Origin: a virus
Strand: one strand, 5' to 3'
IMG/VR virus record: IMGVR_UViG_3300022744_000055
Span: 1-40,150 of that record
DNA length: 40,150 nt
This document shows, piece after piece, positions 3,030 through 39,972 of the stretch. Made by a program: the position numbers and the translations under genes. Within the stretch, counting starts at the first letter, position 1. The number at the start of each line of letters is the position of its first letter. A model generated the notes under the pieces. It had not been told where the DNA came from. It worked only from the letters and a program-made list of their open reading frames with translations, and ran no database searches.

Positions 3030-3046
3030 AACAACCACTGGTTGTT
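3030..3046. promoter_or_regulatory. Operator palindrome in the Cro/primase leader
   Basis: AACAACCACTGGTTGTT is a perfect 17-bp inverted repeat with a single central base. It lies just upstream of the Cro-like start and downstream of a possible weak minus-strand -10 (TACACT, 3059-3054). The inner 15 bases recur exactly at 6353-6367. It is a member of the phage-wide AACAACC/GGTTGTT family. Confidence 0.75.
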
Positions 3047-3074
3047 GGCCCGTAGTGTATTTGAAAAGTAACCC

Positions 3075-3126
3075 TTGACGCCCTCACAACGGCGCGGTCT
3101 ACTACAATTAACAACCAAATAGTTGT
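3075..3126 (+). promoter_or_regulatory. Probable repressor promoter with overlapping operator
   Basis: TTGACG (3075-3080) and TCTACT (3098-3103) are separated by 17 bases, predicting a start near 3110. An imperfect family operator, AACAACCAAATAGTTGT (3110-3126), covers that start point, which suggests autoregulation of the downstream regulator. A second possible -10 (TACAAT, 3103-3108) has no good -35. Confidence 0.5.
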
Positions 3127-3150
3127 CGTTGGATGCTTTAGGAGAACGAG

Positions 3151-3855
3151 ATGTATGCGCCTACTAACTTTAGAGAAGCCCTTGAGATGGACATGGAGCG
3201 GCGCAGCATGACTGAAGCCGTGCTGGGGCGGTTGTTGGATGAAGACAAACCGCTGTCCCAGCAAGCCATCCACAAGTGGAAACAGCGCGGGTTCCCTCCC
3301 CTCGCCCGCCTGGATCAACTCAAGAAAGTGTTGGGCGACGACAGCTATGTGGCGAAACTGACCCACCAGCAGATATATGCCAACGAGGCAAGAACCGTGG
3401 TCAGGCCCAGCGCCAGCAAGACTTTGGACCCGGTGACGGTTGATAGGGAGTGGGTATCCCAGGAGTCGAAGACCCTGCGCAACATGCTGACGGCCTCCGA
3501 CGAACAGAACAGCCACACCTCTCTTGAAAGAGACCTGGAGGTGAAGAACGCAAGGCTAAAGCTCGATTGGGCTTCTGACAAGTTCGTGGTGGAAATGATC
3601 TATGTCACCAACGGAGTGGCCCACAAAAACGTCAGTTCAGCCCTGCTGCGGTTGCTGGCGGTGAGCCGCACCTACGGCCTGGAACCGGTGCTGATGCTCA
3701 TTGAGCGTGACGGCAGCACCAGACTGCCCGCACACGCTCTCGCGGCTATATCGGCGTTCAACATCGTGGTGAAACCCGTGCGGGACGGGGCAGAAGCTGC
3801 GTGGGCGTTGAAGCTCATGGCTGGTGACAACACGCTCATAGAACCCGACGACTGA
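3151..3855 (+). CDS. Lysogeny repressor-like HTH protein without an S24 peptidase domain
   Basis: This 234-residue protein has an N-terminal HTH (about residues 18-60, with LSQQAIHKWKQRGFPPLARL) that nearly matches the recognition region of the Cro-like neighbour. The rest is not a LexA/CI peptidase: I see no catalytic Ser/Lys arrangement. Instead there is a predicted alpha/beta region (FVVEMIYVTNG..., LEPVLMLIERDG..., FNIVVKPV) that I do not recognise. ATG 3151 has AGGAG six bases upstream. The gene stands alone, divergent from the Cro/primase operon, between a self-overlapping operator and its own strong terminator, as expected for a CI-type repressor. Repressor function and operator specificity are inferred; absence of S24 means induction would not follow the usual RecA-assisted self-cleavage. 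Confidence 0.7.
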   Translation: MYAPTNFREALEMDMERRSMTEAVLGRLLDEDKPLSQQAIHKWKQRGFPPLARLDQLKKVLGDDSYVAKLTHQQIYANEARTVVRPSASKTLDPVTVDREWVSQESKTLRNMLTASDEQNSHTSLERDLEVKNARLKLDWASDKFVVEMIYVTNGVAHKNVSSALLRLLAVSRTYGLEPVLMLIERDGSTRLPAHALAAISAFNIVVKPVRDGAEAAWALKLMAGDNTLIEPDD

Positions 3856-3873
3856 AAGCCCTAGTTCCGTATC

Positions 3874-3899
3874 AAAACCCGGTACGCACCGGGTTTTTT
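3874..3899 (+). terminator. Intrinsic terminator of the repressor gene
   Basis: AACCCGGT-ACGC-ACCGGGTT forms an 8-bp stem with a tetraloop followed by a run of T. It begins 18 bases after the regulator stop and separates it from the early promoter at about 3950. Confidence 0.9.
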
Positions 3900-3940
3900 C
3901 ATGTCTGACGCAACAACCACAAAAAATAAATAACACCCAC

Positions 3941-3968
3941 TTCAACACCCTTGGAGTTGTGATACAGT
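3941..3968 (+). promoter_or_regulatory. Early operon promoter with embedded operator
   Basis: Extended -10 TG-A-TACAGT (3960-3968) with TTCAAC (3941-3946) as a possible -35, 16 bases away. The spacer holds the inverted repeat CAAC-ACCCTTGGA-GTTG (3943-3959), and its right arm GTTGTG overlaps the TG of the extended -10. About 22 of 27 bases match the promoter at 10404-10430. A further half site, CAACAACCAC, is at 3911-3920. Confidence 0.65.
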
Positions 3969-4014
3969 ATCCCCACCAACAGCGCGAAGGTTGTTGTTTT
4001 TAGAAAGGGAATGG

Positions 4015-4179
4015 ATGCGTCTTACCGACAACGAACTGGTCAGAGCCGTGTACGCCACACCGGATGAGTTTGACGAAATGGCGAGGGAGCTGGCCCACAG
4101 GCTGGACAAAGCTCTTGAGGAAATTGCAGGTTTGGAACTTGAACTGGAAATCTTGGAAAGGAACCAACGTGGGAATTGA
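4015..4179 (+). CDS. Small acidic coiled-coil protein, first gene of the early operon
   Basis: A 54-residue protein, rich in Glu and Leu in its C-terminal half (ALEEIAGLELELEILERN), likely helical or coiled coil. I chose ATG 4015 because AGAAAGGGA lies just upstream; an upstream TTG at 3991 in the same frame falls in the leader. It is the first gene after the operator-controlled promoter and overlaps the next gene start (GTG 4169) by 11 bases. Not assigned to a family; function unknown. Confidence 0.6.
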   Translation: MRLTDNELVRAVYATPDEFDEMARELAHRLDKALEEIAGLELELEILERNQRGN

Positions 4180-4600
4180 AGTACAACTGGCGGCGCTGAT
4201 CGACGCCATCAACCAACAGACAGCAGCCCAGCGCGAAACCAACGCAATCTGGGAGAAGTTGTCGGCTGCGGCCAAGAACGCCGCGAACACCGCAGATAGC
4301 GGCATCAAGGCGGCGGGCCTGGAGGTGGTACCCCCAAAGCAGACCGCGCAGCAGGATGCACCTACCCCCGCTGCAAGCGCACCGGCCCAGGCGGCTCCTG
4401 CGCCAGCAGAGCCTGCTGCGGCATCCCCTTCTGACGAAGTTGCGCTCACCATCAAGGATTTGACCGAAGCCACAACCGATGCGGCCACTCGTAACCGGGA
4501 AGGCTTGGTTGCCTTGCTGAAGTCTTACGGCGTTGCAAGAGCAGGCGCACTGCCCACCGACAAGTGGGCCGAGTTTGTGGCGAAGGCCAAGGCGCTCTGA
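4169..4600 (+). CDS. Conserved phage protein with Ala/Pro-rich linker, upstream of the nuclease
   Basis: A 143-residue protein starting at GTG 4169, with GGAAAGGA upstream. It has an N-terminal helical segment (VQLAALIDAINQQ...), a long Ala/Pro linker (about residues 60-95) and a small C-terminal helical domain ending in LLKSYGVARAGALPTDKWAE. A similar C-terminal module often precedes DUF2800 nucleases in phages, and here its stop overlaps the next ATG. It probably belongs to the recombination/replication module with the two genes downstream. No catalytic motif is visible; function unknown. Confidence 0.7.
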   Translation: MGIEVQLAALIDAINQQTAAQRETNAIWEKLSAAAKNAANTADSGIKAAGLEVVPPKQTAQQDAPTPAASAPAQAAPAPAEPAAASPSDEVALTIKDLTEATTDAATRNREGLVALLKSYGVARAGALPTDKWAEFVAKAKAL

Positions 4601-5766
4601 TGGCTCACGCAAGACTCTCACCATCCAGCGCGGAGCGCTGGTTGAACTGTCCGGGCAGTGTGAAGCTGTCGGAAGGTCTGGAGGACAAAGGTAGCGCGTT
4701 TGCGGACGAAGGCACCGCCGCACACTGGGCCGCAGAGCAGATTCTGTTGGGCGCACACACGGCGGATACCGTGGTCGGGTTGAAAGCCGACAACGGCGTG
4801 AAAGTCACCGCAGACATGGTTTCCTTCGTCATGCGCTATGTCAATGGTGTGCGCGACTTGGTGGCGTCCACAGGCGGGGCGTTGCTGGTTGAACAGAAGC
4901 TCCCTATCGGGTTGTTCACCGGCGAAACGCACGAAGATGGGCAACCGGCCAAGGGCACCGCAGACGCTGTGGTCATCGCTGGTGCTGAACTGATTGTTTG
5001 CGACCTGAAGTTTGGGCGCGGCGTCGAAGTCAGCGCAGAAGAAAACCCGCAGCTCATGCTGTACGCACTGGCCGCGAGGCATGTGTATGACGTAGTAAGC
5101 GGACCGTTTGACCGCATACGCCTTGTTATCAGTCAGCCCCGGCTGGGTGCCTGGAGCGAGTGGGCAACCACCAGTGACGCCTTGGACAGCTTTGCCACGG
5201 AGGTTTCGGTCGGCGCATCCCTGTGCGACGCCCCAGACGCCCCCCTGGTGCCAACTGAGAAAGGGTGCAAGTTCTGCAAGGCGAAGGCCACCTGTCCCGC
5301 ACTGTCCAAGGCCGCGCTTGACCAGTTCGACTCGCTGCCAACCCCACTGGCCGATGCGCCTGCCGATGCGCTGGCGACCGCCATGTCAAAGGCCAAGCTC
5401 ATTGAAGATTGGATCAAGGCGGTACGGGCCGAAGCCGAACGCAGACTGCTCAGTGGCGAAGATGTGCCGGGGTTCAAGCTTGTGCAAGGCCGCGCAGGGT
5501 CTCGCAAATGGCTGGACGCCGTAGAAGCCGAGGCCCGCCTGAAGTCCATGGGCGTCCGCCAAGACGACCTGTACCACAAGGAATTGGTTTCTCCTACCGA
5601 TGTGGAGCGGCTCCACAAGGAAGGGAAACTGACTGAAAAACGCTGGCAGAAGCTCCAGCCAATGATCGTTCGCAGCGAGGGGAGTCCGTCGGTGGCCCCA
5701 CTCAGCGACAAACGCCCTGCCCTGGTTGTGGCGGCACCCACAGACGAATTCGATTCACTCATCTGA
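4600..5766 (+). CDS. DUF2800 protein, RecB/Cas4-like exonuclease
   Basis: A 388-residue protein of the DUF2800 type, a PD-(D/E)XK nuclease relative of RecB and Cas4. Visible elements are the N-terminal SPSSAERWLNCPGS, nuclease-core acidic and lysine residues in GTADAVV...LIVCDLKFGRGVEV and the following QLMLYALAA, and a cysteine cluster KGCKFCKAKATCPAL near residue 225-235 that could bind metal or an Fe-S cluster. The start at 4600 overlaps the preceding TGA. It is followed by a DUF2815 ssDNA-binding protein and a family A polymerase, a recurring phage replication/recombination set. Exonuclease activity is inferred from fold and motif. Confidence 0.85.
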   Translation: MAHARLSPSSAERWLNCPGSVKLSEGLEDKGSAFADEGTAAHWAAEQILLGAHTADTVVGLKADNGVKVTADMVSFVMRYVNGVRDLVASTGGALLVEQKLPIGLFTGETHEDGQPAKGTADAVVIAGAELIVCDLKFGRGVEVSAEENPQLMLYALAARHVYDVVSGPFDRIRLVISQPRLGAWSEWATTSDALDSFATEVSVGASLCDAPDAPLVPTEKGCKFCKAKATCPALSKAALDQFDSLPTPLADAPADALATAMSKAKLIEDWIKAVRAEAERRLLSGEDVPGFKLVQGRAGSRKWLDAVEAEARLKSMGVRQDDLYHKELVSPTDVERLHKEGKLTEKRWQKLQPMIVRSEGSPSVAPLSDKRPALVVAAPTDEFDSLI

Positions 5767-5776
5767 AAGGCAAATC

Positions 5777-6334
5777 ATGCAAATCATCCTGAAAAACGTC
5801 ACCATCGCATACCCACAACTGTTTGAAGCCCGTGAGTTCAAGAAAGGCGATGGGCGCCCACGTTGGTCCGCTACTTTCCTGATTGAGAAAGGTAGTGACA
5901 ACGACAAGGCCATCATGTCCGCAATCGAAGCCGTGGCCAAGGACAGCTTTGGCCCCAAACACGCCCAAATGCTCAAGAGCATCGAAGGTGTCAAACAGCA
6001 GATGTGCTACATCGAGGGTGACCGCAAAGGCGAGAGCTTCGCGGGCCGCATGGTGCTGTCCTGCCACCGCCAGATGAAGACCAAAGCGGGCGACAACAAG
6101 CCGCCACTGGTCATTGGCCGCGATAAGCAACCCGTGGTGGACCCCGGTAAAGTGTTCTCTGGCTGCACGGTCAACGCCCGAGTGGACTTCTGGGGCCAGA
6201 CAGGCGAGAACCCCGGAATGCGCTGCTCGTTTGATGTGGTGCAGTACGTACAGGACGGCGACCCAATCGGTACTGTTGTGACGGCGGACGGGTTCGATGC
6301 GCTGGAAGGCGCAGAGGCAAGTGATTTCGTCTGA
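5777..6334 (+). CDS. DUF2815 single-stranded DNA-binding protein
   Basis: A 185-residue DUF2815 protein, an OB-fold family regarded as phage ssDNA-binding proteins. It starts MQIILKNVTIAYPQLFEARE and contains the family blocks RWSATFLIEKGSD, GKVFSGCTVNARVDFW and GMRCSFDVVQYVQDG. The C-terminus is acidic and ends in DFV, like partner-binding tails of bacterial SSB. AAAGG precedes ATG 5777. It sits between the DUF2800 nuclease and DNA polymerase and probably coats ssDNA for both. Confidence 0.85.
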   Translation: MQIILKNVTIAYPQLFEAREFKKGDGRPRWSATFLIEKGSDNDKAIMSAIEAVAKDSFGPKHAQMLKSIEGVKQQMCYIEGDRKGESFAGRMVLSCHRQMKTKAGDNKPPLVIGRDKQPVVDPGKVFSGCTVNARVDFWGQTGENPGMRCSFDVVQYVQDGDPIGTVVTADGFDALEGAEASDFV

Positions 6335-6348
6335 TTTTTCGTGGCCGA

Positions 6349-6371
6349 CCTCACAACCACTGGTTGTGAGG
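6349..6371. promoter_or_regulatory. Operator palindrome inside the early operon, before the polymerase gene
   Basis: A 23-bp perfect inverted repeat with 11-bp arms (CCTCACAACCA/TGGTTGTGAGG) around one central base. Its core ACAACCACTGGTTGT is identical to the site at 3031-3045. No clear promoter is visible here, so it may act as a roadblock or control an unrecognised internal promoter for polymerase. Confidence 0.65.
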
Positions 6372-6389
6372 TTTACTGAAGAACAACCT

Positions 6390-8456
6390 ATGAACCTCTG
6401 GCTCGATTTGGAAACGTACAACGACACGCCGATCACGGCGGGCACGTACCGGTACGCATCAACGGCGGAGGTGCTGCTGTTCGCATGGGCGGTTGACCAC
6501 GACCCGGTTCAGACATGGGATGTGGCCAGCGGCGCACCCATGCCCTACGACCTTGAAGTGGCGCTGCTCGACCCCGAGTGCGTGGTGTTCGCCCACAACT
6601 CCATGTTTGACCGCAACGTGCTGCGCCATGCCATGCCTGCGCTATGCCCACCGGTTGAACGGTGGAGGGACACGATGGTGCAAGCCTTGGCACATTCGCT
6701 GCCAGGAGCGCTGGGCGCGTTGTGTGACGTATTGACCGTGCCTTCCGACAAAGCGAAGGACAAGCGCGGCAAACAGTTGGTGCAACTGTTCTGCCAACCA
6801 CGGCCAAAGAACATGAAGCTGCGCAGGGCCACGCACCAGACCCACCCGACAGAGTGGGCCGAGTTCGTGGACTACTGCCGCTTGGATGTAGAAGCCATGC
6901 GCGAGGTGTTCGCACGGCTGCCGAACTGGAATTACCGGGGCGCAGAGCTGGCTCTGTGGCACTTGGACCAAACCATCAATGATCGTGGCATCGCGGTGGA
7001 CACCGAGCTGGTTGACGCCGCCCTGGACGCCGTGGCGCAAGAACAAGAGGTGCTGGCAGCACAGACCGTCGATATGACAAACGGCGAGGTGCAAACCGCG
7101 AACCAGCGCAACCGGATGCTGGAGCACATCCTCACTGAATACGGGTACCACCTAGACGACCTACGGGGCGCAACGGTGGAAAAGGTGATGGACGACCCGG
7201 AGCTGCCAGAAGACCTGCGGGCCTTGCTGGTTGTGCGACTGCAAGCCTCCACAACCAGCACAAGCAAATACCGGGCGCTGCAACGCGCAACAAACCTGGA
7301 CGGGCGGATTCGCGGACTTCTTCAGTTTTGCGGGGCGTCCCGCACGGGGCGCTGGGCAGGTCGCACGTTCCAGCCCCAAAACCTGCCGCGCCCAACACTG
7401 GACGCTGACGAGGTTGATGTGGGCATCGGCGCACTCAAGGCCGGTACAGCGGGGCTGATTTACCCAAACGTCATGGAGGTGGCCAGCAGCGCCATTCGCG
7501 GGTGCATCGTGGCCGCGCCCGGAAAGAAGTTGGTCATTGCCGACTTGTCCAACATCGAAGGGAGAGGCTTGGCTTGGCTGGCCGGGGAACAGTGGAAGCT
7601 GCAAGCGTTCCGCGAATTTGACTCAGGCATGGGGTTTGACCTTTACAAGTTGGCCTACGCCAAATCATTCGGCGTGGACCCCGGCGCGGTCACCAAAGAC
7701 CAGCGCCAAGTCGGCAAGGTGCAGGAACTTGCGTTGGGCTATCAAGGGGGCGTGGGTGCTTTCGTGACGTTCGCCAGCGGGTACGGCATCAACCTCGACA
7801 AACTGGCGGCAGGCATCCTGCCCAACGCCCCAGCGGATTTGCTGACGGAGGCCCGCTCGTTCTTGGAGTGGCTGAAGAAGCAGCCCGACGCGCAGACCTA
7901 CGGACTCGCTGACGACACTTTTGTCGCGTGTGATGTGGTCAAGCGCGGCTGGCGCAACGGCCACCCGGCTACGGCGGCTTGGTGGCCCAAGCTGGAACAA
8001 GCGTTCAAGGACGCAGTAGACAGCGCAGCCTTTACGTTCGACTGCGGCACCGTGAAAGTGCGGCGCGATGGCAGTTGGATTCGGGTTCTGTTGCCCTCCG
8101 GGCGCTACGTCTGCTACCCCTCCCCAGGGGTGGATGACGATGGTTCAGCGTACTACTACGGCGTCAACCAGTTCTCCCGCAAATGGGGGCGCATCAAGAC
8201 GTATGCCGGGAAGCTGGCGGAGAACCTGACGCAAGCCTTTGCACGGGACATTCTGGCCTACAACATGCCCGCAATCGAAGCGGCAGGCTATCGCATCGTT
8301 CTGTCAGTCCATGACGAACTGTTGACCGAAACGCCGGACAGCCCTGAGTTCAATCACCAGCATTTGGCCGAACTGATGGCAGCGCCCCCTCCATGGGCTG
8401 CGGACATACCACTGGCTGCTGCCGGGTTTGAGACATACCGATACCGCAAGGACTGA
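6390..8456 (+). CDS. Family A DNA polymerase (phage type)
   Basis: A 688-residue replicative polymerase. The N-terminal 3'-5' exonuclease has DLETY (6-10), HNSMFDRNVL and DYCRLDVEAM, giving the expected acidic residues. The C-terminal polymerase domain has motif A VIADLSNIEGRGLAWLAG, motif B RQVGKVQELALGYQGG and motif C VLSVHDELL. ATG 6390 is the first start after the operator palindrome and gives the exonuclease domain its usual position; upstream in-frame sequence overlaps DUF2815 and is not conserved-looking. It is followed at once by a VRR-NUC nuclease and a SNF2 helicase, a set that recurs in Gram-positive and proteobacterial phages. The catalytic motifs look intact. Confidence 0.95.
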   Translation: MNLWLDLETYNDTPITAGTYRYASTAEVLLFAWAVDHDPVQTWDVASGAPMPYDLEVALLDPECVVFAHNSMFDRNVLRHAMPALCPPVERWRDTMVQALAHSLPGALGALCDVLTVPSDKAKDKRGKQLVQLFCQPRPKNMKLRRATHQTHPTEWAEFVDYCRLDVEAMREVFARLPNWNYRGAELALWHLDQTINDRGIAVDTELVDAALDAVAQEQEVLAAQTVDMTNGEVQTANQRNRMLEHILTEYGYHLDDLRGATVEKVMDDPELPEDLRALLVVRLQASTTSTSKYRALQRATNLDGRIRGLLQFCGASRTGRWAGRTFQPQNLPRPTLDADEVDVGIGALKAGTAGLIYPNVMEVASSAIRGCIVAAPGKKLVIADLSNIEGRGLAWLAGEQWKLQAFREFDSGMGFDLYKLAYAKSFGVDPGAVTKDQRQVGKVQELALGYQGGVGAFVTFASGYGINLDKLAAGILPNAPADLLTEARSFLEWLKKQPDAQTYGLADDTFVACDVVKRGWRNGHPATAAWWPKLEQAFKDAVDSAAFTFDCGTVKVRRDGSWIRVLLPSGRYVCYPSPGVDDDGSAYYYGVNQFSRKWGRIKTYAGKLAENLTQAFARDILAYNMPAIEAAGYRIVLSVHDELLTETPDSPEFNHQHLAELMAAPPPWAADIPLAAAGFETYRYRKD

Positions 8457-8457
8457 G

Positions 8458-8733: not shown

Positions 8734-10112
8734 GCCGACCATTTACACCGCGCCCCTACCAAAAACTCATCATTGACCACATTCTGTCGAACGACAGGTG
8801 CGCCATTTGGGCCGACATGGGCATGGGCAAAACCAGCGCCAGCTTGACCGCCATTGACGCCCTCCGCTTCGTGGAGAGCGACCCGATACTGGTCCTAGCG
8901 CCAGCCAGGGTTGCCAACACCACATGGCCAGATGAGACCCAGAAGTGGGCGCACACGCAGCACCTTCGCGTACAGCCGGTGACAGGCCCGCTCAAAGGCC
9001 GAGTGCAGGCTGTTGCAAACAGGGCCGATGTGTACGCCTGCAACTACGACAACCTGCCTTGGCTGGTGGATCACTGGGGCGACAAATGGCCCTACAAAAC
9101 GGTCATTGCCGACGAGTCCACCAAGCTCAAATCCTTCCGCATTCGTCAAGGCGGGGAGCGGGCCAAGGCGCTGTCGAAAGTAGCTCACACCAAGGTGCGA
9201 CGGTTTGTGGCACTCACGGGCACCCCAGCACCAAACGGTCTTCAAGACCTGTGGGGCCAGATGTGGTTCATAGATCGGGGGCAACGCCTGGGGCGGACTT
9301 TTGAGGCGTTCAAGCAGCGGTGGTTCAGGCCGCACCCCAGCGGATTCGGCATCGTGGCCATGCCCCACGCCCAGCAGGAGATTCAGGACGCCTTGCGGGA
9401 TGTGTGCCTGACCGTAGAGGCAAAGGATTGGTTTGACCTTCGGCAGCCCATTGTGAACAACATTTACGTGGACATGCCTGCCAGGGCGCGGAAAGCGTAT
9501 GAAGACCTGGAAAAGCAGATGTTTGCCGAACTGGACTGCGGCACCGAGCTGGAAGCCTTCAACGCCGCAGCCAAGACCATCAAGTGCTTGCAGTTGGCCA
9601 ACGGGGCGGCGTACACCGGGGACAGCGGCGCGTGGACCGAACTGCATGACCAGAAGATACAGGCGCTGGACGAAATCGTAGAGGACGCCCAGGGGAACCC
9701 CATATTGGTGGCCTATCACTTCAAGTCGGACTTGGAACGGCTCAAACGGGCGTTCCCAAAGGGGCGTGAGCTGGACAAAGACCCAAAGACCCTGAAGGAT
9801 TGGAACAAGGGGCGCATTCCCCTTCTGTTTGCACACCCGCAGTCGGCGGGTCACGGCCTGAACTTGCAGGACGGCGGGCACATTCTGGTGTTCTTCTCCC
9901 ACTGGTGGAACTTGGAAGAACGAATGCAGATTCAGGAACGCATCGGGCCAACGCGCCAGATGCAGGCGGGGTATGACCGCCCGGTGTACGTACACAACCT
10001 AGTGGCGAAAAACACCGTAGACGAATTGGTGATCGAGCGCGTCAACACCAAACGTGAGGTACAGGACATTCTCATGGGCGCAATGAAACGACGAAAGGCA
10101 CAAACCACATGA
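8730..10112 (+). CDS. SNF2-family DNA helicase/translocase
   Basis: A 460-residue SF2 helicase of the short phage SNF2 type. It has Walker A WADMGMGKTSA (about 28-38), a DEXH-like IADESTKLKSF, motif III LTGTPAPNGLQDLWGQ, and a C-terminal lobe with SAGHGLNLQDGGHILVFFS and QERIGPTRQ. It likely remodels branched or protein-bound DNA together with the adjacent VRR-NUC. The start overlaps the VRR-NUC stop and the end overlaps the DUF3310 start by four bases, implying translational coupling. Confidence 0.92.
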   Translation: MSRPFTPRPYQKLIIDHILSNDRCAIWADMGMGKTSASLTAIDALRFVESDPILVLAPARVANTTWPDETQKWAHTQHLRVQPVTGPLKGRVQAVANRADVYACNYDNLPWLVDHWGDKWPYKTVIADESTKLKSFRIRQGGERAKALSKVAHTKVRRFVALTGTPAPNGLQDLWGQMWFIDRGQRLGRTFEAFKQRWFRPHPSGFGIVAMPHAQQEIQDALRDVCLTVEAKDWFDLRQPIVNNIYVDMPARARKAYEDLEKQMFAELDCGTELEAFNAAAKTIKCLQLANGAAYTGDSGAWTELHDQKIQALDEIVEDAQGNPILVAYHFKSDLERLKRAFPKGRELDKDPKTLKDWNKGRIPLLFAHPQSAGHGLNLQDGGHILVFFSHWWNLEERMQIQERIGPTRQMQAGYDRPVYVHNLVAKNTVDELVIERVNTKREVQDILMGAMKRRKAQTT

Positions 10113-10387: not shown

Positions 10388-10403
10388 ATTTCTTCGCCCT
10401 CCG

Positions 10404-10454
10404 CAACAACCTTGGGGTTGTGTTACATTACGTCACAACAACCCCGACGTTGTT
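10404..10454 (+). promoter_or_regulatory. Internal early promoter with two operators
   Basis: Extended -10 TG-T-TACATT (10421-10429). Upstream lies ACAACC-TTGG-GGTTGT (10406-10421), whose right arm runs into the TG of the -10; downstream, over the initial transcribed region, lies AACAAC-CCCGAC-GTTGTT (10437-10454). The layout matches the promoter at 3941-3968. It would drive the second half of the early operon. Confidence 0.65.
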
Positions 10455-10472
10455 ATCAAGATTCAAAGAAAC

Positions 10473-10760
10473 ATGCCCATCCCAACCTCAGACACCCGCC
10501 TCGCAGTCAAAGAACTGTTCAACACCTTCCCTGCCATGCCCTTCACAGCCGTGGAGATTGCAGCCCGCACGGGACTCAACACCACCAAGGCGGTGCAGAA
10601 CCTGCGCCAAGTTGGCTGGCTGGAGTCCCGCCGTGTACCGGGCCAAGGCACCGTGTATTTCCGCTCACCCAACCTCACGCCGCTCAAAGGTGAGCAGGCG
10701 TGTACCGGGCCAAGGCACCGTGTATTTCCGCTCACCCAACCTCACGCCGCTCAAAGGTGA
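10473..10760 (+). CDS. HTH protein, C-terminus altered by a frameshifting 67-bp duplication
   Basis: A 95-residue reading frame with an N-terminal winged-helix-like HTH (FTAVEIAARTGLNTTKAVQN, then VGWLESRRVPGQGTVYF). After about residue 76 (PLKGEQA) the sequence enters the second copy of a 67-bp tandem duplication, shifts frame and ends with an out-of-frame tail. Removing one copy restores a single frame through to 10938, giving a protein of about 132 residues that continues LITHSKAHDSGASML... The HTH survives, so the product could still bind DNA. It is the first gene after an operator-controlled promoter. Either a recent mutation, a reversible switch or an assembly error. Confidence 0.65.
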   Translation: MPIPTSDTRLAVKELFNTFPAMPFTAVEIAARTGLNTTKAVQNLRQVGWLESRRVPGQGTVYFRSPNLTPLKGEQACTGPRHRVFPLTQPHAAQR

Positions 10761-10767
10761 GCAGGCG
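10632..10767. repeat. 67-bp perfect tandem duplication
   Basis: Bases 10632-10700 equal 10699-10767 exactly, giving a tandem duplication with a period of 67 bp. Because 67 is not a multiple of three it shifts the HTH gene frame. Identity is complete, which implies a very recent event or an assembly artefact. Confidence 0.95.
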
Positions 10768-15436: not shown

Positions 15437-15672
15437 CTGAAGCCGCCCTACTCTCACGGATAGACATGCTGACCCAGGCTGTCATCACACTGGCCCAGAC
15501 GCAGGGCGCGAGGCTGACCCGCAAGGAGTTGGCCCAGCGTCTTGGCATCCACCCCAACAGCGTTACCCGCAAGCTGGCAGAGGATCGGAATTTCCCCCGG
15601 CCTGACCCGCTTGGGCGTTGGCTCCTGGCTGACGTTATTGCTTGGGAATCAGCTTCTGCGCCAGATCGGTAA
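15433..15672 (+). CDS. Excisionase-like HTH protein (AlpA/MerR type)
   Basis: A 79-residue protein starting at GTG 15433. The C-terminal half is a small winged HTH: RLTRKELAQRLGIHPNSVTR, then KLAEDRNFPRPDPLGRWLL and ADVIAWE, which matches AlpA/excisionase-type proteins that bend attachment-site DNA. It is the last gene of the early operon and converges on the integrase gene, with their 3' ends overlapping by 38 bp. Its role in excision is inferred from domain and position. Confidence 0.7.
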   Translation: MTEAALLSRIDMLTQAVITLAQTQGARLTRKELAQRLGIHPNSVTRKLAEDRNFPRPDPLGRWLLADVIAWESASAPDR

Positions 15673-16621
15673 CGTCTGGATTGAAATAGACCATGGCCAT
15701 CTTTGGATCACTCCACCCAAAGACTTTGCAAAGCTCAAGAACATGCAGCTGCTTCGCCAATCGCGTTGCGGCTGTGTGTCTTGCGTCATGGAACACAAAC
15801 CCGGACAGCCCAGACCTGTCCCGGTACTTTCTGAACATCGCGTCCAGCGTCTGAGGAGTCAAGCCAAAGACAGACACATCATCCCAGCCTCGCATCCTGC
15901 GCACGATGCGCTGCGCCACCGGAGTCAGCGGAACATCCCGCGACTTTCCGTTTTTGGTCATCGTCAGGTGAACATGCGTTTGAAACACATCGCTCCACCC
16001 CAGACCGCACAACTCCCCCGCCCGCATCCCAGTTGACAGAGCCAGAAGGAAGCACTGAGCAACCGACTGCCTGACCGTTGTCACCCGCTCCCGCTCATAG
16101 CCAAGCGCCCGCAACATCCCGCAAATTTCCCCCAATGAAATGATCCGCTCCCGGTGACCCGGCTGTGCTGGTTTGCGAACATCCCGCATCGGGTTGGCTT
16201 GGATCAGACCCCAATCGCGCCTTGCCGTCTCCAGCACACTGGACAGCAGGGAAATGTCACGCAGCACAGACCCTCTGGATACTTCCTGCATCCTGGCATC
16301 GCGCCATGCTGACAGGTGAACGGGGGTCAACTCAGAAATTGGCTTATCCAGTGGCAGCGGGTGAGACTCGAACGCTTGCAGGCGCACCAACTCCCAATGC
16401 TTACCCCGCTTGCCGGGTGAAACCTCGGTGGCGTATCGGCGCATGACCTCGCGCAAGGTGGTTTTCTGTCCTGCTGGACGGGAGTCACGCAGTTCCAGGG
16501 TGCGCCGCTGCCCCCAATCCACAGCCTCACGCTTGGTGGTAAATGTCGCGCTGTCGCGCACACCTTTGATCTCAATCTGGATGCGCCACGTTCCCTGCGC
16601 TGTCTTGGTTGGCGTGGCCAT
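15635..16621 (-). CDS. int: Tyrosine integrase
   Basis: A 328-residue site-specific recombinase. The N-terminal segment (GTWRIQIEIKGVRDSATF...KREAVDW) resembles arm-binding domains, a core-binding helical domain spans about 50-150, and the catalytic domain carries Arg200 (STGMRAGEL), a beta-hairpin lysine (KNGKSRDVPL), His278 and Arg281 (FHDARHTAATR), Trp303 in the place of the second histidine (FGWSDPKM) and nucleophile Tyr312 (MVYFNP). The catalytic set looks complete. The ATG at 16621 borders the attP region. It mediates integration of the phage circle into a host tRNA gene and excision with the neighbouring small HTH protein. Confidence 0.95.
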   Translation of the reverse strand: MATPTKTAQGTWRIQIEIKGVRDSATFTTKREAVDWGQRRTLELRDSRPAGQKTTLREVMRRYATEVSPGKRGKHWELVRLQAFESHPLPLDKPISELTPVHLSAWRDARMQEVSRGSVLRDISLLSSVLETARRDWGLIQANPMRDVRKPAQPGHRERIISLGEICGMLRALGYERERVTTVRQSVAQCFLLALSTGMRAGELCGLGWSDVFQTHVHLTMTKNGKSRDVPLTPVAQRIVRRMRGWDDVSVFGLTPQTLDAMFRKYRDRSGLSGFVFHDARHTAATRLAKQLHVLELCKVFGWSDPKMAMVYFNPDVTDLAQKLIPKQ

Positions 16622-30085: not shown

Positions 30086-30088
30086 GGG

Positions 30089-31511: not shown

Positions 31512-31534
31512 TTGGGTTTCCTTCAAAGGATGGG

Positions 31535-31565: not shown

Positions 31566-31584
31566 CTATCCGTCGCGGGAGCGA

Positions 31585-35059: not shown

Positions 35060-35271
35060 AGCCCCATATCCCTGACTTGGGTTTTGCAATAGCAGTACTG
35101 GCCGTGCCCTGTCTCAACAGGTGCGCCGCAGTTTGGGCAGTTCAACTCGCCCTCAATCAGCAATACCGTTGGGGCTGGATCACAAATGCGGTGTACGGAC
35201 AAAGTGCGCACAGCGGGCGGCATCGGCGGGGCCGAGGGCTTTGCATACACAGGGCGCGGGTTGATAGGCAT
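35056..35271 (-). CDS. Small zinc-ribbon protein between terS and terL
   Basis: A 71-residue protein with a Pro-rich N-terminus (INPRPVYAKPSAPPMPPAV) and a C-terminal metal-binding-like motif CPNCGAP...GQYCYCKT. It starts just after the terS stop and overlaps terL by four bases, so the three would be co-translated. I know no standard packaging role for such a protein; it could be a DNA-binding packaging accessory. Confidence 0.65.
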   Translation of the reverse strand: MPINPRPVYAKPSAPPMPPAVRTLSVHRICDPAPTVLLIEGELNCPNCGAPVETGHGQYCYCKTQVRDMGL

Positions 35272-35272
35272 G

Positions 35273-35743
35273 TCAAACAGCCAGCAAATCCTCGTCTGCC
35301 AAAGCCTCGCGCACCTTCTCGGCCTGCTGTTGGAGCTTGCGGGCCTGCTCCACATCGCGCTTGTCGCCCTTGGATGAGCCGATCATTTGCAGGGAGCGCA
35401 TCAGGGCCAGCTCTCGGCGGGCCAGTTGCTCCAGCACTGAATGGCGCGGGTTTTGAATCGGCGTACCACGTTGGTTCTCCAAAACGGAGCCTTCTTGGTC
35501 AAGCAGAGCCGATTCACGCTCAATATCAGCTTGGCAACGCGCCAGTTGAGCGGCCACCACCAGATCGGCAGCGGTCCATTCGTCCCTGGTTCGCGCGCGC
35601 ACAATTCCGTCCCAAAAATCTGCATCCCCTGGCCGCAGCTTGACATGCCGTGGCACATCAGGTAGCGGCGTGGCTGCTCCCAGCATGGCTTTCACAGCAC
35701 TGGAGGCAGTTGTAGAGGGGGCTTTTTTGGCTCGGGTCGCCAT
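35273..35743 (-). CDS. Terminase small subunit
   Basis: A 156-residue TerS. The N-terminus is Ala/Ser-rich; then DVPRHVKLRPGDADFWDGIV, a helical core (TAADLVVAAQLARCQADIER) and NPRHSVLEQLARRELALMRS with a C-terminal helix (EQARKLQQQAEKVREALADE). This is the phage P27-type/HK97-type small terminase. I chose ATG 35743 because upstream in-frame sequence is not TerS-like. No strong ribosome site is visible. Confidence 0.85.
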   Translation of the reverse strand: MATRAKKAPSTTASSAVKAMLGAATPLPDVPRHVKLRPGDADFWDGIVRARTRDEWTAADLVVAAQLARCQADIERESALLDQEGSVLENQRGTPIQNPRHSVLEQLARRELALMRSLQMIGSSKGDKRDVEQARKLQQQAEKVREALADEDLLAV

Positions 35744-35835
35744 TTGGGTCGGAAAAATCCGGGTTGGCAATGAAATGAGGGGGACTGAGCGGTTTACAGG
35801 AGCAAGGGCCTGCACTTTCGGCTACCCCCTCCATG

Positions 35836-36129
35836 TCAGATCACCGGCCAACCGTCCGCACCTATAGCGGTCTTTGGTCTGTGGCCACAGTCAGCGCGGG
35901 TCTTATCCGCATGACAGTCACGGCAAAGCGCCTGGAGGTTTGACCTCGCATCGGTCCCGCCATTGTGTAGCGGGTTGATGTGGTCCACCTCAAGAGCTGG
36001 CGTCACCATTCCAACTGACAAGCAAACAACACAGAGGGGCTGTTCGGACAGAACCGCAGTTCTTATCCTCTGCCATGTTCTGCCAGTTGTCCGCTTTTGC
36101 AGACGGGTTGCCCCTGAAGTGTTGACCAT
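35836..36129 (-). CDS. HNH endonuclease
   Basis: A 97-residue HNH nuclease, first gene of the late operon. Core: CVVCLSVGMVTPALEVDHIN, PLHNGG, SNLQALCRDCHADKT, with two CxxC pairs for structural zinc and the catalytic DH. Stand-alone HNH proteins beside terminase genes in HK97-type phages assist the large subunit in cos cutting. That this one does so is inferred from position. Confidence 0.9.
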   Translation of the reverse strand: MVNTSGATRLQKRTTGRTWQRIRTAVLSEQPLCVVCLSVGMVTPALEVDHINPLHNGGTDARSNLQALCRDCHADKTRADCGHRPKTAIGADGWPVI

Positions 36130-36198
36130 GTGTGTGCACTGGGTCTGATAGGGGCGGCACTTTACCTAGTTTTCCAACAACCTGCAAATATTTTTTCG

Positions 36199-36234
36199 GG
36201 TTGTTTGCCATAACAACCAAAAGGTTGTTATAAT
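36199..36234 (+). promoter_or_regulatory. Strong promoter with embedded operators for the 36.3-38.5 kb operon
   Basis: TTGCCA (36205-36210), 18-base spacer, TATAAT (36229-36234) with the extended TG-T before it. The spacer is filled by the perfect inverted repeat AACAACC-AAAA-GGTTGTT (36212-36229), and a second overlapping pair GGTTGT...ACAACC spans 36199-36218. A lone AACAACC is at 36176-36182. This is the best consensus promoter in the window and is directly under operator control. It lies between the divergent late operon and the accessory operon. Confidence 0.85.
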
Positions 36235-36302
36235 ACAGCCATGCGCTAGATAGCTGGCGCGGCAGGTAACCCGCTGAATCAGGGTTAATTCGGAGAGCTG
36301 AA

Positions 36303-36884
36303 ATGCCCACTTTTGAAACCGGAGCCACAACAGCAGCAGCTAACAACTTGGTGTTGTCTGTACTGAATGATGGCGCGATTTACATGTGCCGCCTGCACAT
36401 CGGTTTTGCAGAGCTGCAAAACACCTCGCACCAAGATATTACATGGCGCGACTTGTGCGCAGCAGAAGCAACTAAGCAACGAACAATAGGCGGCAAGTTC
36501 AAAGCCGCTGAAATATCCGAAGCCGCAAAGCTAGTGCGTGCCGCCACCCTAGAAAGTTGCAAAGAAATTTTCGCGTGTGAATATGACAGCACAAAACAGG
36601 TTATTGCCACTTGCCGCCGATGGTTCGATTCAGTCAATGGCAATAGCTATTTCTCCGTGTGGGTGGGCATTCCTACTGCCGCCGGGTTTAGGAGCTTCGT
36701 CGTGCCGTTTCAATATGGATATGGTTCGCAGTGGCAATATGAAACCGTTAACGCATTGGTCAATTATGGCGTGTTGCAACCATTCCCGAAATACGATAAC
36801 GGAAACACTAAGTACGGGTATCTTTCAGAACTGCCGATTATCTGGCGTGATGTGGGTTATGGTCTCAAAAAGCATCTGTTTTGA
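36303..36884 (+). CDS. Unrecognised protein, first gene of accessory operon
   Basis: A 193-residue protein with a strong GGAGAG site. The N-terminal part is mixed; the C-terminal half is compositionally distinctive (CRRWFDSVNGNSYFSVWVGI, VVPFQYGYGSQWQYETVNAL) and rich in aromatic residues. I recognise no catalytic motif. It is the first and largest gene of an operon of small genes controlled by the TATAAT promoter. Base composition is visibly more A/T-rich than the structural genes. Candidates include host takeover or anti-defence functions, without direct evidence. Confidence 0.75.
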   Translation: MPTFETGATTAAANNLVLSVLNDGAIYMCRLHIGFAELQNTSHQDITWRDLCAAEATKQRTIGGKFKAAEISEAAKLVRAATLESCKEIFACEYDSTKQVIATCRRWFDSVNGNSYFSVWVGIPTAAGFRSFVVPFQYGYGSQWQYETVNALVNYGVLQPFPKYDNGNTKYGYLSELPIIWRDVGYGLKKHLF

Positions 36885-36898
36885 GGCGGAGTGAATAA

Positions 36899-36985
36899 AT
36901 GTATTCAATCCGCGAAATTCTCGAATGCGCCATTCTGGCTTTGCTTATCTCGACACCTTTTATTTTCTGGGGGTTTGTAGCATGA
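36899..36985 (+). CDS. Tiny 28-residue membrane peptide
   Basis: A short frame, MYSIREILECAILALLISTP then FIFWGFVA, almost entirely one hydrophobic helix. GGCGGAG lies before ATG 36899, and its stop overlaps the ATG of the next gene (36982). The ribosome site and the overlap are the evidence for expression. Function unknown. Confidence 0.5.
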   Translation: MYSIREILECAILALLISTPFIFWGFVA

Positions 36986-37203
36986 AAACAGTTTTCACTT
37001 TTGGCGGGGCAAACCCCTACAACAAAAAAGCAACCGCTCTCATAGAGATTAAGCAATCCGACTCTAAAACCGCTCTTTTTACCGTTATTTATGGGGCTGA
37101 GTGCGTTACTGATCTGACATATGGGAGAGCTGCAAAACTGTTCGGGGAATTTATGTTCCATCATCTTGCATGTGAATCAAAGCTGAATAATGAGGGGGTG
37201 TGA
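36982..37203 (+). CDS. Small unknown protein, accessory operon
   Basis: A 73-residue protein, MKTVFTFGGANPYNKKATAL then SDSKTALFTVIYGAECVTDL, predicted alpha/beta. The start overlaps the upstream membrane peptide stop. The stop is three bases before the next ATG. No family recognised. Confidence 0.65.
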   Translation: MKTVFTFGGANPYNKKATALIEIKQSDSKTALFTVIYGAECVTDLTYGRAAKLFGEFMFHHLACESKLNNEGV

Positions 37204-37206
37204 ATC

Positions 37207-37440
37207 ATGACAAAACAATTCAAGGCTTTTGGTGTCGGAAATTCAAGTGGCGTCGCCTGCAACACTCCAAAAGAAGCGGCGATATCGTTTTTTGAGCGTA
37301 ACCCGTCAAAACGTAAATGCAACATATATGAAGGGATGGATGACGGCCATTTCTTTTCGGTTAGTTTCGGCAGAAAATCGACCGGAGAATGGCCATGGAC
37401 TAAAAAGGACGTTACTAAAAAAGACGTTCCCGCTCTTTGA
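37207..37440 (+). CDS. Small unknown protein with MTKQF start, copy 1
   Basis: A 77-residue basic protein (MTKQFKAFGVGNSSGVACN, PKEAAISFFERNPSKRKCNI, SVSFGRKSTGEWPW). The 22 bases around its start (37200-37221) are identical to those around the next gene's start (37445-37466). The body does not obviously match that gene. Function unknown. Confidence 0.65.
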   Translation: MTKQFKAFGVGNSSGVACNTPKEAAISFFERNPSKRKCNIYEGMDDGHFFSVSFGRKSTGEWPWTKKDVTKKDVPAL

Positions 37441-37451
37441 AAGGGTGAATC

Positions 37452-37766
37452 ATGACAAAACAATTCGAAAACGAATCGTCACGCTATGGCTCCCGAATGG
37501 GTCGTTGGGAATCCCCGAACCCAGAACCGGTAGCCCGTTCGGTTCGTTGCTTCCAGGTCCGGTTGGATTCTGGCGGATATGACGACGGCGGGGCATATTG
37601 GGGGCTCGGGAAACCGCTTTATTGTCTGGACCAGTCCGAACATGAAACGGTTAACGCTTACGGCAACCGGGTTTATTTTCGAGCATTTATTCGCGCCAGC
37701 TCTCGCAAAGAAGCTATTGCGGCAAGCGGTTTAGCTGATTTTCTTTTTATAAGGGGTGAGAAATGA
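37452..37766 (+). CDS. Small unknown protein with MTKQF start, copy 2
   Basis: A 104-residue protein with many aromatic and Gly residues (ARSVRCFQVRLDSGGYDDGG, AYWGLGKPLYC) and a final helical segment with SSRKEAIAASGLADF. Starts with the same MTKQF and upstream block as the previous gene. Overlaps the next gene by four bases. Not recognised. Confidence 0.65.
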   Translation: MTKQFENESSRYGSRMGRWESPNPEPVARSVRCFQVRLDSGGYDDGGAYWGLGKPLYCLDQSEHETVNAYGNRVYFRAFIRASSRKEAIAASGLADFLFIRGEK

Positions 37767-37972
37767 ATAGCGTCGAAAGAAAAATATACGCCGAAAAGCG
37801 CTTCCGCGTATTTCAAGGAACTACGCAAGAGCAGATAGACGGGGTTTTGTCCGTATCCGACACTTTAAAGCGCTACGGGCTGCAACTATCCGTAAATGAG
37901 TTTGGACAGCTAATGGTTTTGACGCGGTATGGCCGAAAGCCGATAGCCTGCACCGGGTTGGGTTTATCTTAA
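37763..37972 (+). CDS. Small unknown protein, accessory operon
   Basis: A 69-residue protein: RKIYAEKRFRVFQGTTQEQI, SDTLKRYGLQLSVNEFGQLM. Likely one or two helices with a short beta part. Start overlaps the preceding TGA (ATGA), with GGGGTGAG upstream. Function unknown. Confidence 0.6.
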   Translation: MNSVERKIYAEKRFRVFQGTTQEQIDGVLSVSDTLKRYGLQLSVNEFGQLMVLTRYGRKPIACTGLGLS

Positions 37973-37986
37973 TTAGGGAGCGAATA

Positions 37987-38220
37987 ATGAAATTCGAAAC
38001 CTATCTGTTGCCTGAATTCTGGGCACCTGCACTTATAAACGCCGACTTTTCAGGCATGGAAGATTCAGACATTTCTGAATTAGCGCAGTGGTTGGCAGAC
38101 GTTAAACCCGGTACGTGCGTTCAATGCGACGATTCCCGCGAATTTTCGAAATGGCATGACGCCATCGGATATGTTCTCGCATGTGACTGTATCAACTTCA
38201 CTTTTCAGGTGGCAGAATGA
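37987..38220 (+). CDS. Small acidic unknown protein, accessory operon
   Basis: A 77-residue acidic protein: MKFETYLLPEFWAPALINAD, EDSDISELAQWLADVKPGTC, VQCDDSREFSKWHDAIGY. Small size, strong acidity and early position recall DNA mimics and other anti-defence proteins, but that is only a compositional hint. GGGAGCG precedes the start. Stop overlaps the next ATG. Confidence 0.65.
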   Translation: MKFETYLLPEFWAPALINADFSGMEDSDISELAQWLADVKPGTCVQCDDSREFSKWHDAIGYVLACDCINFTFQVAE

Positions 38221-38465
38221 AAATCCAATATCAATCAAGTGTGAAAGTGCCCGCCGGTTGGAGGTCCGTTAATGTAGTGGCCACATGCACTAGGGTGTCA
38301 CCGGGTATGGCCATTGTCGAATCGGTGGATTTAATCGACGGGGAAAAACCAAGCTACGGGCAAACCCGAACCGGCGCGAAACGTCAGGAATTTAACGGCC
38401 GATTCTGGGCAAGCTGCGAAGTAGGTAAGAAAAAACGCTTGTCGGCATGCACCATATTGGAGTAG
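38217..38465 (+). CDS. Small unknown protein, last gene of accessory operon
   Basis: An 82-residue basic, beta-rich protein: MKIQYQSSVKVPAGWRSVNV, VSPGMAIVESVDLIDGEKPS and RFWASCEVGKKKRLSACTIL. It ends about 40 bases before a strong terminator. No family recognised. Confidence 0.65.
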   Translation: MKIQYQSSVKVPAGWRSVNVVATCTRVSPGMAIVESVDLIDGEKPSYGQTRTGAKRQEFNGRFWASCEVGKKKRLSACTILE

Positions 38466-38507
38466 CGGCAAACCACAATTCGCGCCAGCTTGAGAGCTGA
38501 AACCCTA

Positions 38508-38540
38508 GGGGGCTAGTCGAAAGGCTAGCCCCCTTTCCTA
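38508..38540 (+). terminator. Intrinsic terminator of the accessory operon
   Basis: GGGGGCTAG-TCGAAAGG-CTAGCCCCC forms a nine-bp stem followed by TTTCCTATTTT. It ends the operon that begins at 36303. Confidence 0.9.
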
Positions 38541-38575
38541 TTTTGTCGCGCCACAGCGCAGACTGTGAAAACCCG

Positions 38576-38617
38576 TAGGCGGGCGCATTGGAGACAGTGC
38601 GCCCGCCTATTTGTTTT
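38576..38617 (+). terminator. Second strong terminator hairpin
   Basis: A 12-bp perfect stem TAGGCGGGCGCA/TGCGCCCGCCTA with a 10-base loop, followed by TTTGTTTT. On the minus strand it is followed by a GGGTTTTC tail, so it may also act leftward. It backs up the terminator 36 bases upstream. Confidence 0.85.
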
Positions 38618-38636
38618 CATACACTCCACGCCCACT

Positions 38637-38891
38637 ATGGACCACCAAAACCCAACCCGCCGAAACCCCGCACAAAAGAAAAACCGCGCCCGATGGTCTG
38701 TTGACCTCCTACCGGTTCCGGAATCCGTAGGCGGACTGACCGTGCTAGGGACCATCAACCGAAATACGCTGATTGACCCGCTGTTGACCGACGGCGTGTC
38801 GTTCTTTGCGCAGACCCCTAGGGGGTTGGAGGAACTGCGGACCGATAAGGTCCGGGCAACCCTGTCGGGCCACAAAAAAGACCCGATTTAA
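38637..38891 (+). CDS. Possible small basic protein
   Basis: An 84-residue frame, MDHQNPTRRNPAQKKNRARW then DLLPVPESVGGLTVLGTINR and LIDPLLTDGVSFFAQTPRGL. The N-terminus is very basic. There is no clear ribosome site and it follows two terminators, so it would need its own promoter, which I do not see. Amino-acid composition is reasonable for a real protein. Confidence 0.4.
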   Translation: MDHQNPTRRNPAQKKNRARWSVDLLPVPESVGGLTVLGTINRNTLIDPLLTDGVSFFAQTPRGLEELRTDKVRATLSGHKKDPI

Positions 38892-39114
38892 GCCGCTTTC
38901 GACCCGGACCCTATGCAACCCCTAGACGGACCAAAAACGATGCGCTGCAGGGCCAATTCCGAGCCTTCTCGGGGCATGTTTCAGGGTCTACGAGCTGGCG
39001 TGTCGAGGGGTCGGCGCTATGGTTTCTGTAGCGATTTCCCGAAGGTTGACCCCCTCCGTAGGATTTTTTGGGCAAAAATGACCCCCTGTAGTGGGATTTT
39101 TGGGAGGAAAAGAG
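38892..39114. other. Non-coding stretch with a 29-bp degenerate direct repeat
   Basis: I find no convincing gene. Near its end lie two related units, 39046-39074 and 39078-39106, sharing TGACCCCCT, a GTAG-type step and GGATTTTTGGG. They immediately precede the ribosome site of the next gene (GGGAGGAAAAGAG), so they may be regulatory. Confidence 0.5.
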
Positions 39115-39351
39115 ATGATTAAGAAACTGCTTCTGGGCGTACTCGGCGTGGCCGTTGTTTTCTTGGGCTTTGGTTTTTACGCATCCAGTACGCCAGAAGG
39201 ACAGGCAAAAGCCCGCGAACGCCGGGTGATCGAGGAATGCTGGAAGCGACAGGGCGGAAAACAGCACAGTGCGGGCACTGCGCAGTTCATAGCCGGTGCC
39301 TGTGCGAACCTTGAGGCCGAGTTTGAGCGGAAGTGGCGGACTACGCCGTAA
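39115..39351 (+). CDS. Small secreted or membrane-anchored protein
   Basis: A 78-residue protein with Lys-rich start and hydrophobic helix (MIKKLLLGVLGVAVVFLGFG) serving as signal anchor, then a charged domain with two cysteines (VIEECWKRQGGKQ..., IAGACANLEAEFERKW). The ribosome site GGAGGAAAAGAG is strong. It is isolated between non-coding repeats and a convergent operon, whose last gene it overlaps by 11 bases, so it looks like a moron-type gene possibly expressed from the prophage. Function unknown. Confidence 0.65.
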   Translation: MIKKLLLGVLGVAVVFLGFGFYASSTPEGQAKARERRVIEECWKRQGGKQHSAGTAQFIAGACANLEAEFERKWRTTP

Positions 39352-39727
39352 CAAGCTCCAACCGCGCCTGTACGTGGTCCCTGAAACTGCGAACGTGGTC
39401 CTGTAGGTCTTTGTGCGTCACCCCCAGGTGTTGGCAAACACGCCCTGGAGGGATGTAGGGGTACACGTAACTCCAAACGCCTGCCACGCGCACCTTATCG
39501 TGTAGGTGACGCATTTGCCGCTCCACATGCTCGGCGTCGAGCAGGTCCACGGTTTCACGGTGCTGAGGCGTGTGCCACTGCCACCATGGGGCGCGGTACT
39601 GGCGGAACATGGGGCTGACTTGCGAGGGCGTACTTGGCGTCACCCAACGCGCCCAGTTGATAAGCCTGTCGTGGACGGCCCGGTGTTCCGGGCTGACGTA
39701 GTGGTAGTCCTTGTCGTACTGCCTCAT
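39341..39727 (-). CDS. Q-like late regulator candidate (sigma-region-4-like HTH)
   Basis: A 128-residue protein. N-terminal RAVHDRLINWARWV and a central DLLDAEHVERQMRHL, then VYPYIPPGRVCQHLGVTHKD and DLQDHVRSFRDHVQARLEL. This layout (LINWARW, an AEXVER helix, a C-terminal HTH after a YV...P motif) resembles the small Q-like antiterminators or regulators of Burkholderiales phages. ATG 39727 overlaps the stop of the upstream gene (39724). It lies in an operator-controlled leftward operon. If Q-like, it could help late transcription through the hairpins in the structural genes. Confidence 0.6.
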   Translation of the reverse strand: MRQYDKDYHYVSPEHRAVHDRLINWARWVTPSTPSQVSPMFRQYRAPWWQWHTPQHRETVDLLDAEHVERQMRHLHDKVRVAGVWSYVYPYIPPGRVCQHLGVTHKDLQDHVRSFRDHVQARLELVTA

Positions 39728-39933
39728 GCGCGTCCTTTCAGCCATTCAGGTTTGTTTGGCAACGGTGCCCATGCCAGCAGACCTTGCGACTTCGACGTAA
39801 CCGCCTCATAACGCGCAACGCCTTCTTTTGGCAGAACCTGCACCTTGACGCCTTTCGGGCAAGATTCCATCGGTTGCCAGAAGTAGGTCTGGTCAACGGC
39901 CACTTTGGCCATTTGGCTGATTTTGATGTTCAT
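39724..39933 (-). CDS. Small conserved phage protein (DUF551-like style)
   Basis: A 69-residue protein with TYFWQPMESCPKGVKVQVLP, GVARYEAVTS and the C-terminal LLAWAPLPNKPEW. The W.PM..CP.GVK...W.PLP pattern occurs in short DUF551-like phage proteins of unknown role. ATG 39933 is the first start after the operator promoter at 39947-39972; ATG 39912 is an alternative. Its stop overlaps the next gene's start. Confidence 0.65.
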   Translation of the reverse strand: MNIKISQMAKVAVDQTYFWQPMESCPKGVKVQVLPKEGVARYEAVTSKSQGLLAWAPLPNKPEWLKGRA

Positions 39934-39946
39934 AGCTGTGGTTTGA

Positions 39947-39972
39947 ATTTTAACAACGTCTGGTTGTTAAAA
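39947..39972 (-). promoter_or_regulatory. Leftward promoter with embedded operator
   Basis: A 25-bp perfect inverted repeat TTTTAACAAC-(5)-GTTGTTAAAA occupies 39948-39972. On the minus strand its distal arm forms an extended -10, TG-T-TAAAAT (39955-39947). No good -35 is seen. The layout matches the operator promoters at 3941, 10404 and 36205. Confidence 0.7.

Follow-up and report, generated by a model that had tools for sequence, protein, structure and literature searches.

A dispersed family of promoter-associated palindromes as candidate operators of a phage immunity regulon

The DNA examined here is a stretch of 40,150 nucleotides (the window), positions 1 to 40,150 of the IMG/VR virus record IMGVR_UViG_3300022744_000055, whose final 127 bp duplicate its opening, so that the virus is a circle of 40,023 bp; contig L002 is the same virus (99.95%), and its sequence spans the circle junction. 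The replication and mid region is read rightward and the structural genes leftward. Two divergent genes, cro (minus strand) and rep (plus strand), encode, respectively, a Cro-type helix-turn-helix (HTH) protein and a predicted one, and enclose two palindromes of a family that recurs at about six control regions of the circle, and the same divergent arrangement, with sites between the genes, is found in the relatives L004 and L005. On the evidence of sequence, these palindromes very probably serve as operators for an immunity system that the phage itself encodes, a distributed regulon of the CI/Cro type. The two genes and the nine good sites are listed below, the sites without strand and with the positions of their orthologues in relatives.

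2780 to 3013, minus strand: cro, a Cro-like protein of 77 amino acids whose HTH carries the recognition helix SQQSVFKW; it heads the leftward primase operon
3151 to 3855, plus strand: rep, a putative prophage repressor of 234 amino acids, with a predicted N-terminal HTH (SQQAIHKW) and an unrelated C-terminal domain
3030 to 3046: cro operator AACAACCACTGGTTGTT, 17 bp, downstream of the leftward cro promoter and ahead of the cro start; orthologues (17 bp) L004:4252 and L005:5353
3110 to 3127: rep operator AACAACCAAATAGTTGTC, 18 bp, immediately 3' of the rep promoter TACAAT; orthologues (18 bp) L004:4335 and L005:5430
3944 to 3961: early spacer operator AACACCCTTGGAGTTGTG, 18 bp, in the early promoter spacer; its TG is part of TGaTACAGT (3960-3968)
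3978 to 3995: second early operator AACAGCGCGAAGGTTGTT, 18 bp, near the expected transcription start; orthologues L004:5237 and L005:5999
6352 to 6368: ssb/pol operator CACAACCACTGGTTGTG, 17 bp, between the genes for a single-stranded DNA-binding protein and DNA polymerase; orthologues L004:7902 and L005:8410
10405 to 10422: mid spacer operator AACAACCTTGGGGTTGTG, 18 bp, in the mid promoter spacer, supplying the TG of TGtTACATT (10421-10429); orthologues L004:13950, L005:12681 and L053:14472
10437 to 10454: second mid operator AACAACCCCGACGTTGTT, 18 bp, at about +1; orthologues L004:13987 and L005:12723
36212 to 36229: accessory operator AACAACCAAAAGGTTGTT, 18 bp, continuing into TGtTATAAT (36226-36234) of a rightward promoter, TTGCCA-18-TATAAT
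39952 to 39968: 39.95-kb operator AACAACGTCTGGTTGTT, 17 bp, whose minus-strand arm continues into TGtTAAAAT before the gene at 39724-39933

The palindrome family and its promoters

The element is a symmetric dyad, AACAAC-N5/6-GTTGTT, of 17 or 18 bp, with a 5-bp spacing at 3030, 6352 and 39952 and a 6-bp spacing at 3110, 3944, 10405, 10437 and 36212. The initial annotation had listed eight places, and a palindrome is present at every one of them; the ninth, at 3978-3995, had been overlooked, and the dyads at 3944-3961, 6352-6368, 10405-10422, 36212-36229 and 39952-39968 are real but required refined boundaries. The element it had placed at 36199-36229 contains the dyad 36212-36229, but the portion at 36176-36206 consists of two separate half-sites that form no dyad. 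The pattern it had proposed, AACAACC(N)GGTTGTT with a single central base, has no exact match (six at up to three mismatches against 1.9 expected), and a version with three central bases matched the 3030 site alone in the record.

When mismatches are counted over the 12 arm positions at each spacing, spacings 5 and 6 yield four perfect and four one-mismatch sites, against chance expectations of 0.01 perfect sites and 0.28 sites at one mismatch or fewer, while spacings 4 and 7 yield none. In a blind tally of all 6-mer dyads, the top rank in the window, L004 and L005 alike goes to the AACAAC dyad or the version shifted by one base, ACAACC, with a weight in the window of 12 against a null maximum of 6. 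A matrix trained solely on L004 and L005 sites, to which the window sites contributed nothing, returns the nine sites as its nine best spacing-5/6 matches in the window (16 to 29.6 bits). Above 14 bits it gives 10 matches at these spacings against 0.26 expected and at most 2 in 200 shuffles, and at spacings 4, 7 and 10 there are 0 to 1 matches above 12 bits. All nine sites, and nine of the ten matches, lie in non-coding DNA, which by an approximate gene map makes up about 7% of the circle, and none of the ten falls in a structural gene. The initial annotation had seen no palindromes in the structural genes, which is borne out, and had proposed just such a scan of the circle against shuffled controls. 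Two further features belong to the accessory region, the half-sites having been read from the sequence.

36176 to 36206, no strand: half-sites AACAACC and GGTTGTT upstream of 36212, overlapping a possible leftward promoter, TTGCAG-17-TAAAGT, toward HNH/terminase genes
36342 to 36358, no strand: weaker candidate AACAACTTGGTGTTGTC (14.8 bits), inside the open reading frame 36303-36884

A match at 492 (13.7 bits) was rejected as an operator because it forms the stem of a hairpin (-31 kcal/mol) that belongs to a terminator. This strong bidirectional terminator, at 476-530, follows the primase gene, and its stem resembles the operator. Elsewhere in the circle, TTGCTCCAACTTGCTCCAACT repeats in direct and inverted orientation cluster at 110-361, 3' of the primase-helicase gene, and constitute an iteron-like candidate replication origin, and an exact tandem duplication of about 67 bp, common to L002, occupies 10632-10767 in and after a short open reading frame at 10473-10760.

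The word GTTGT occurs 119 times in the genome and continues into an extended -10 sequence, TGnTAnnnT, in only four cases, all of them operator right arms (3944, 10405, 36212 and, on the minus strand, 39952); these are the same four promoters at which the initial annotation had described such a fusion. At the early and mid promoters a second operator follows 32-34 bp on, at about the expected transcription start, and the cro and rep promoters have one operator apiece, just 3' of the probable -10 boxes. Seven such promoters, taken from four phages, align with ACAACC, TTGTG and the -10 box preserved. Among the operator regions, a consensus promoter scan found the 36205 promoter alone, with no clear promoter near the ssb/pol site at 6352, and the remaining promoters look like the extended -10 type with poor -35 boxes.

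Conservation of sites in relatives

L004 and L005 are about 74% identical to the window in the polymerase, 47-49% in the primase and 37-40% in rep, and both have sites at five junctions that correspond to those of the window (cro, rep, early operon, ssb/pol and mid operon), within intergenic DNA that has otherwise largely diverged among the three phages. Dyad length is kept as well, with 17 bp at cro and ssb/pol and 18 bp at rep, the early start and the mid start in all three; the mid spacer site measures 18, 17 and 17 bp in the window, L004 and L005, respectively. The more distant L053 (53% polymerase identity) has an orthologous mid promoter in which TACAAC-N6-GTTGTG leads into TGcTAATAT, and the region between its cro and rep genes contains a degenerate site; in L183, ACAAG-N6-GTTGT lies at cro and a comparable site follows pol. 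The remaining polymerase relatives, L006-L082, comprise 77 loci, of which 75 lack any site at one mismatch or fewer and two have a single site, which argues that the sites track the immunity genes and not the replication genes.

Searches with the rep protein and a rep alignment against viral contigs matched the same virus, L004 and L005 only, and the immunity region has no DNA or protein match in the GenBank phage collection. A primase alignment searched against genome contigs yielded a single, distant contig, from Acidovorax, where the motif is not prominent. L183 contains perfect TTAGAG-N6-CTCTAA palindromes at 298-315, 7447-7464 and 9652-9669, two of which lie 21 bp after ACAA..TTGT operators, and these may represent a second regulon in that phage. 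L123 has three AACAAC-N4-GTTGTT dyads of 16 bp at one mismatch or fewer, together with a QQAISRW Cro, possibly a shorter version of the same operator.

Candidate readers and the proposed circuit

The likely readers of the operators, judging from sequence, are the products of cro and rep. The Cro-like protein is a short single-domain HTH protein of Cro type that matches the Pfam family YdaS_toxin (PF15943, YdaS/Cro-type HTH) at 1.4e-11, above the cut-off, and P22_Cro at 2.7e-6; its closest solved relative in sequence and fold is Xfaso 1 Cro (3bd1; profile match 4.4e-8, Foldseek probability 1.00, root-mean-square deviation 1.2). The rep protein has no Pfam match, its HTH included, although blastp finds similarity between that region and the Cro helix, and L004 and L005 conserve SQQA..KW in their rep counterparts. 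In the structural model the HTH region has predicted local distance difference test (pLDDT) scores of 80-92, against less than 65 for the remainder, and a fold search with rep gave no significant match. For a C-terminal peptidase of the S24/LexA type, neither Pfam nor the PDB sequence matches offered any candidate. Residues 134-223 of rep (window 3551-3820) are modelled with low confidence as an alpha/beta fold, and among its top Foldseek neighbours are nuclease domains of the XPF/Mus81/FAAP24 type and not LexA; a clear catalytic lysine is lacking, and the model would fit, possibly, a dead nuclease-like domain.

The recognition helices of Cro and rep both fit (S/T)QQ(A/S)(V/I).KW, and the link between this helix and the operator extends beyond the window. 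In a non-redundant set of Cro homologues, grouped after the window had been seen and drawn from lineages that are not independent, 10 of 27 genes with a QQ helix, and none of 26 without, have an ACAA-N5-10-TTGT dyad upstream (Fisher p 7e-4); removal of the four phages that had yielded the motif leaves a one-sided p of about 0.007 by our own arithmetic. Within the QQ class the dyad accompanies 9 of 14 QQ(A/S/V) helices and 1 of 13 QQN helices, the genes for the latter mostly sitting inside operons; homologues L088-L122, considered as motif carriers, were set aside as mostly in-operon genes with a QQN helix and no motif upstream. The repressor of phage 434 likewise has a recognition helix that starts TQQ and operators with ACAA half-sites. 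This link between helix and half-site lets operators be predicted in other such phages.

That the phage is equipped for lysogeny is indicated by an integrase gene, adjoined by a possible excisionase gene.

15635 to 16621, minus strand: tyrosine-type integrase (phrog_1 integrase, 5.9e-50)

In a lysogen, rep would take the role of CI, a dimer binding the operators with ACAAC and GTTGT in successive major grooves. It would thereby silence the leftward cro-primase, early, mid, accessory (36.2 kb) and 39.95-kb promoters, since their operators share bases with the extended -10 or the start site, where a bound protein may block RNA polymerase, and it would regulate its own promoter through the 3110 site. 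During lytic growth the 77-residue Cro-like protein, with its near-identical recognition helix, would compete at the same sites. At the ssb/pol site, where no promoter is evident, bound protein may obstruct elongation as a roadblock. The initial annotation had proposed a single regulon, an interpretation that is partly supported: the units for cro/primase, rep, replication and polymerase fit it, as do the mid and accessory units, but the name of late regulator for the operon behind 39952 finds no support, as the encoded proteins have no informative family match.

Several observations weigh against this interpretation. L004 and L005 are related to each other, with cro 83% identical, and therefore are not two independent tests. 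The 39952 site has no counterpart when the L004 and L005 equivalents of the 39.3-39.9 kb genes are searched for an upstream operator, and the QQ-type homologues L227, L169 and L071 lack an upstream dyad. Moreover, the assignment of rep as lysogenic repressor follows from position and HTH, because the model is poor beyond about residue 77 and the protein belongs to no database family.

Among the alternatives, it is possible, if unlikely, that one phage protein alone, Cro for instance, reads the whole set and that the 234-residue protein has another role or other sites. Conservation of rep in its N-terminal HTH only, with a different C-terminal part in L005, would suit this view, as would the precedent of phiKO2, where Cro need not read every prophage-repressor site and binds one of five operators bound by CB (PMC4997575); the shared recognition-helix motif of Cro and rep, and their position on either side of two operators of the same family, speak for two readers. 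If there are indeed two, their action may be separated by the length of the dyad. The 17-bp sites (cro, ssb/pol and 39952) and the 18-bp sites (rep, early and mid start) have common half-sites, and length is mostly held position by position over about 50% protein divergence, so that dimer spacing and not base recognition could conceivably distinguish Cro from rep and set the order of shut-off, a proposal that we regard as rather doubtful. The conserved split makes it possible to test cleanly whether CI and Cro action are set apart by spacing.

An improbable alternative assigns some palindromes a role in RNA, as attenuator or terminator hairpins. The foremost candidate is the 6352 site ahead of the polymerase gene, which can form a 12-bp hairpin of -18.8 kcal/mol (-17 for its L005 counterpart) with no promoter-like site nearby. 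No T-run follows it, however, the weaker hairpin of L004 drops the outer stem and retains the operator core, and most sites of the family coincide in part with -10 boxes, ahead of the point where the transcript is expected to begin. Phage promoters are in general subject to control by host factors, but that these sites bind a host regulator, the phage having joined a bacterial regulon, is highly improbable, given that the sites track the phage's own Cro helix and, in all three of the closest carriers, border cro and rep, whereas relatives with the same replication genes and another immunity region lack them. Chance or composition is scarcely credible as an explanation: the doubled AAC in AACAAC does produce shifted aliases of the dyad at spacings 2, 3, 8 and 9, but the shuffles never came near the observed count, spacings 4, 7 and 10 are all but empty, and conservation in L004, L005 and L053 contradicts accident.

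Comparison with known systems

One family of operators at several separated lytic control regions places the window beside other phages with dispersed sites. P1 carries 22 C1 operators scattered over its genome (PMC8546580), and a single repressor acting at many lytic promoters is what is predicted here; P1 operators, however, are asymmetric 17-bp sites and its prophage is a plasmid, whereas the phage described here has about nine symmetric 17/18-bp dyads, a Cro/CI-type HTH and an integrase. In SPbeta the master repressor MrpR binds repeated SPBRE elements in promoter regions (PMC10516654), a phage-wide arrangement like the present one, but MrpR has a recombinase-like fold and a 15-bp motif, in contrast to the HTH proteins and different motif of the window. 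The stoperators of Cluster A mycobacteriophages also spread many repressor sites over one genome (PMC6550527, PMC9283540); they are asymmetric 13-bp elements, mostly in one orientation to transcription, that stop elongation, whereas the window sites are symmetric dyads of 17/18 bp and mainly fused to promoters.

The divergent Cro and repressor genes with shared palindromic operators recall lambda OR/OL and CP-933P, in which a Cro of the YdaS type, as here, shares an operator region with the repressor PaaR2 (PMC8630535). Operators in those phages are grouped at PR/PRM and at one further promoter and have a half-site of the GTTTAGTAA type, unlike the roughly six control regions seen here. Xfaso 1 Cro, for all its closeness in fold, is about 35% identical to the Cro-like protein and has the helix VRQSAISNW in place of VSQQSVFKW. 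The system offers a complete and testable repressor circuit, comprising sites, predicted blocked promoters and two candidate proteins, for a lineage of environmental temperate phages known mainly from metagenomes. The dispersed-operator principle is known from other phages; this site set is new, with its symmetric 17/18-bp operator and a candidate repressor without a recognisable S24 domain.

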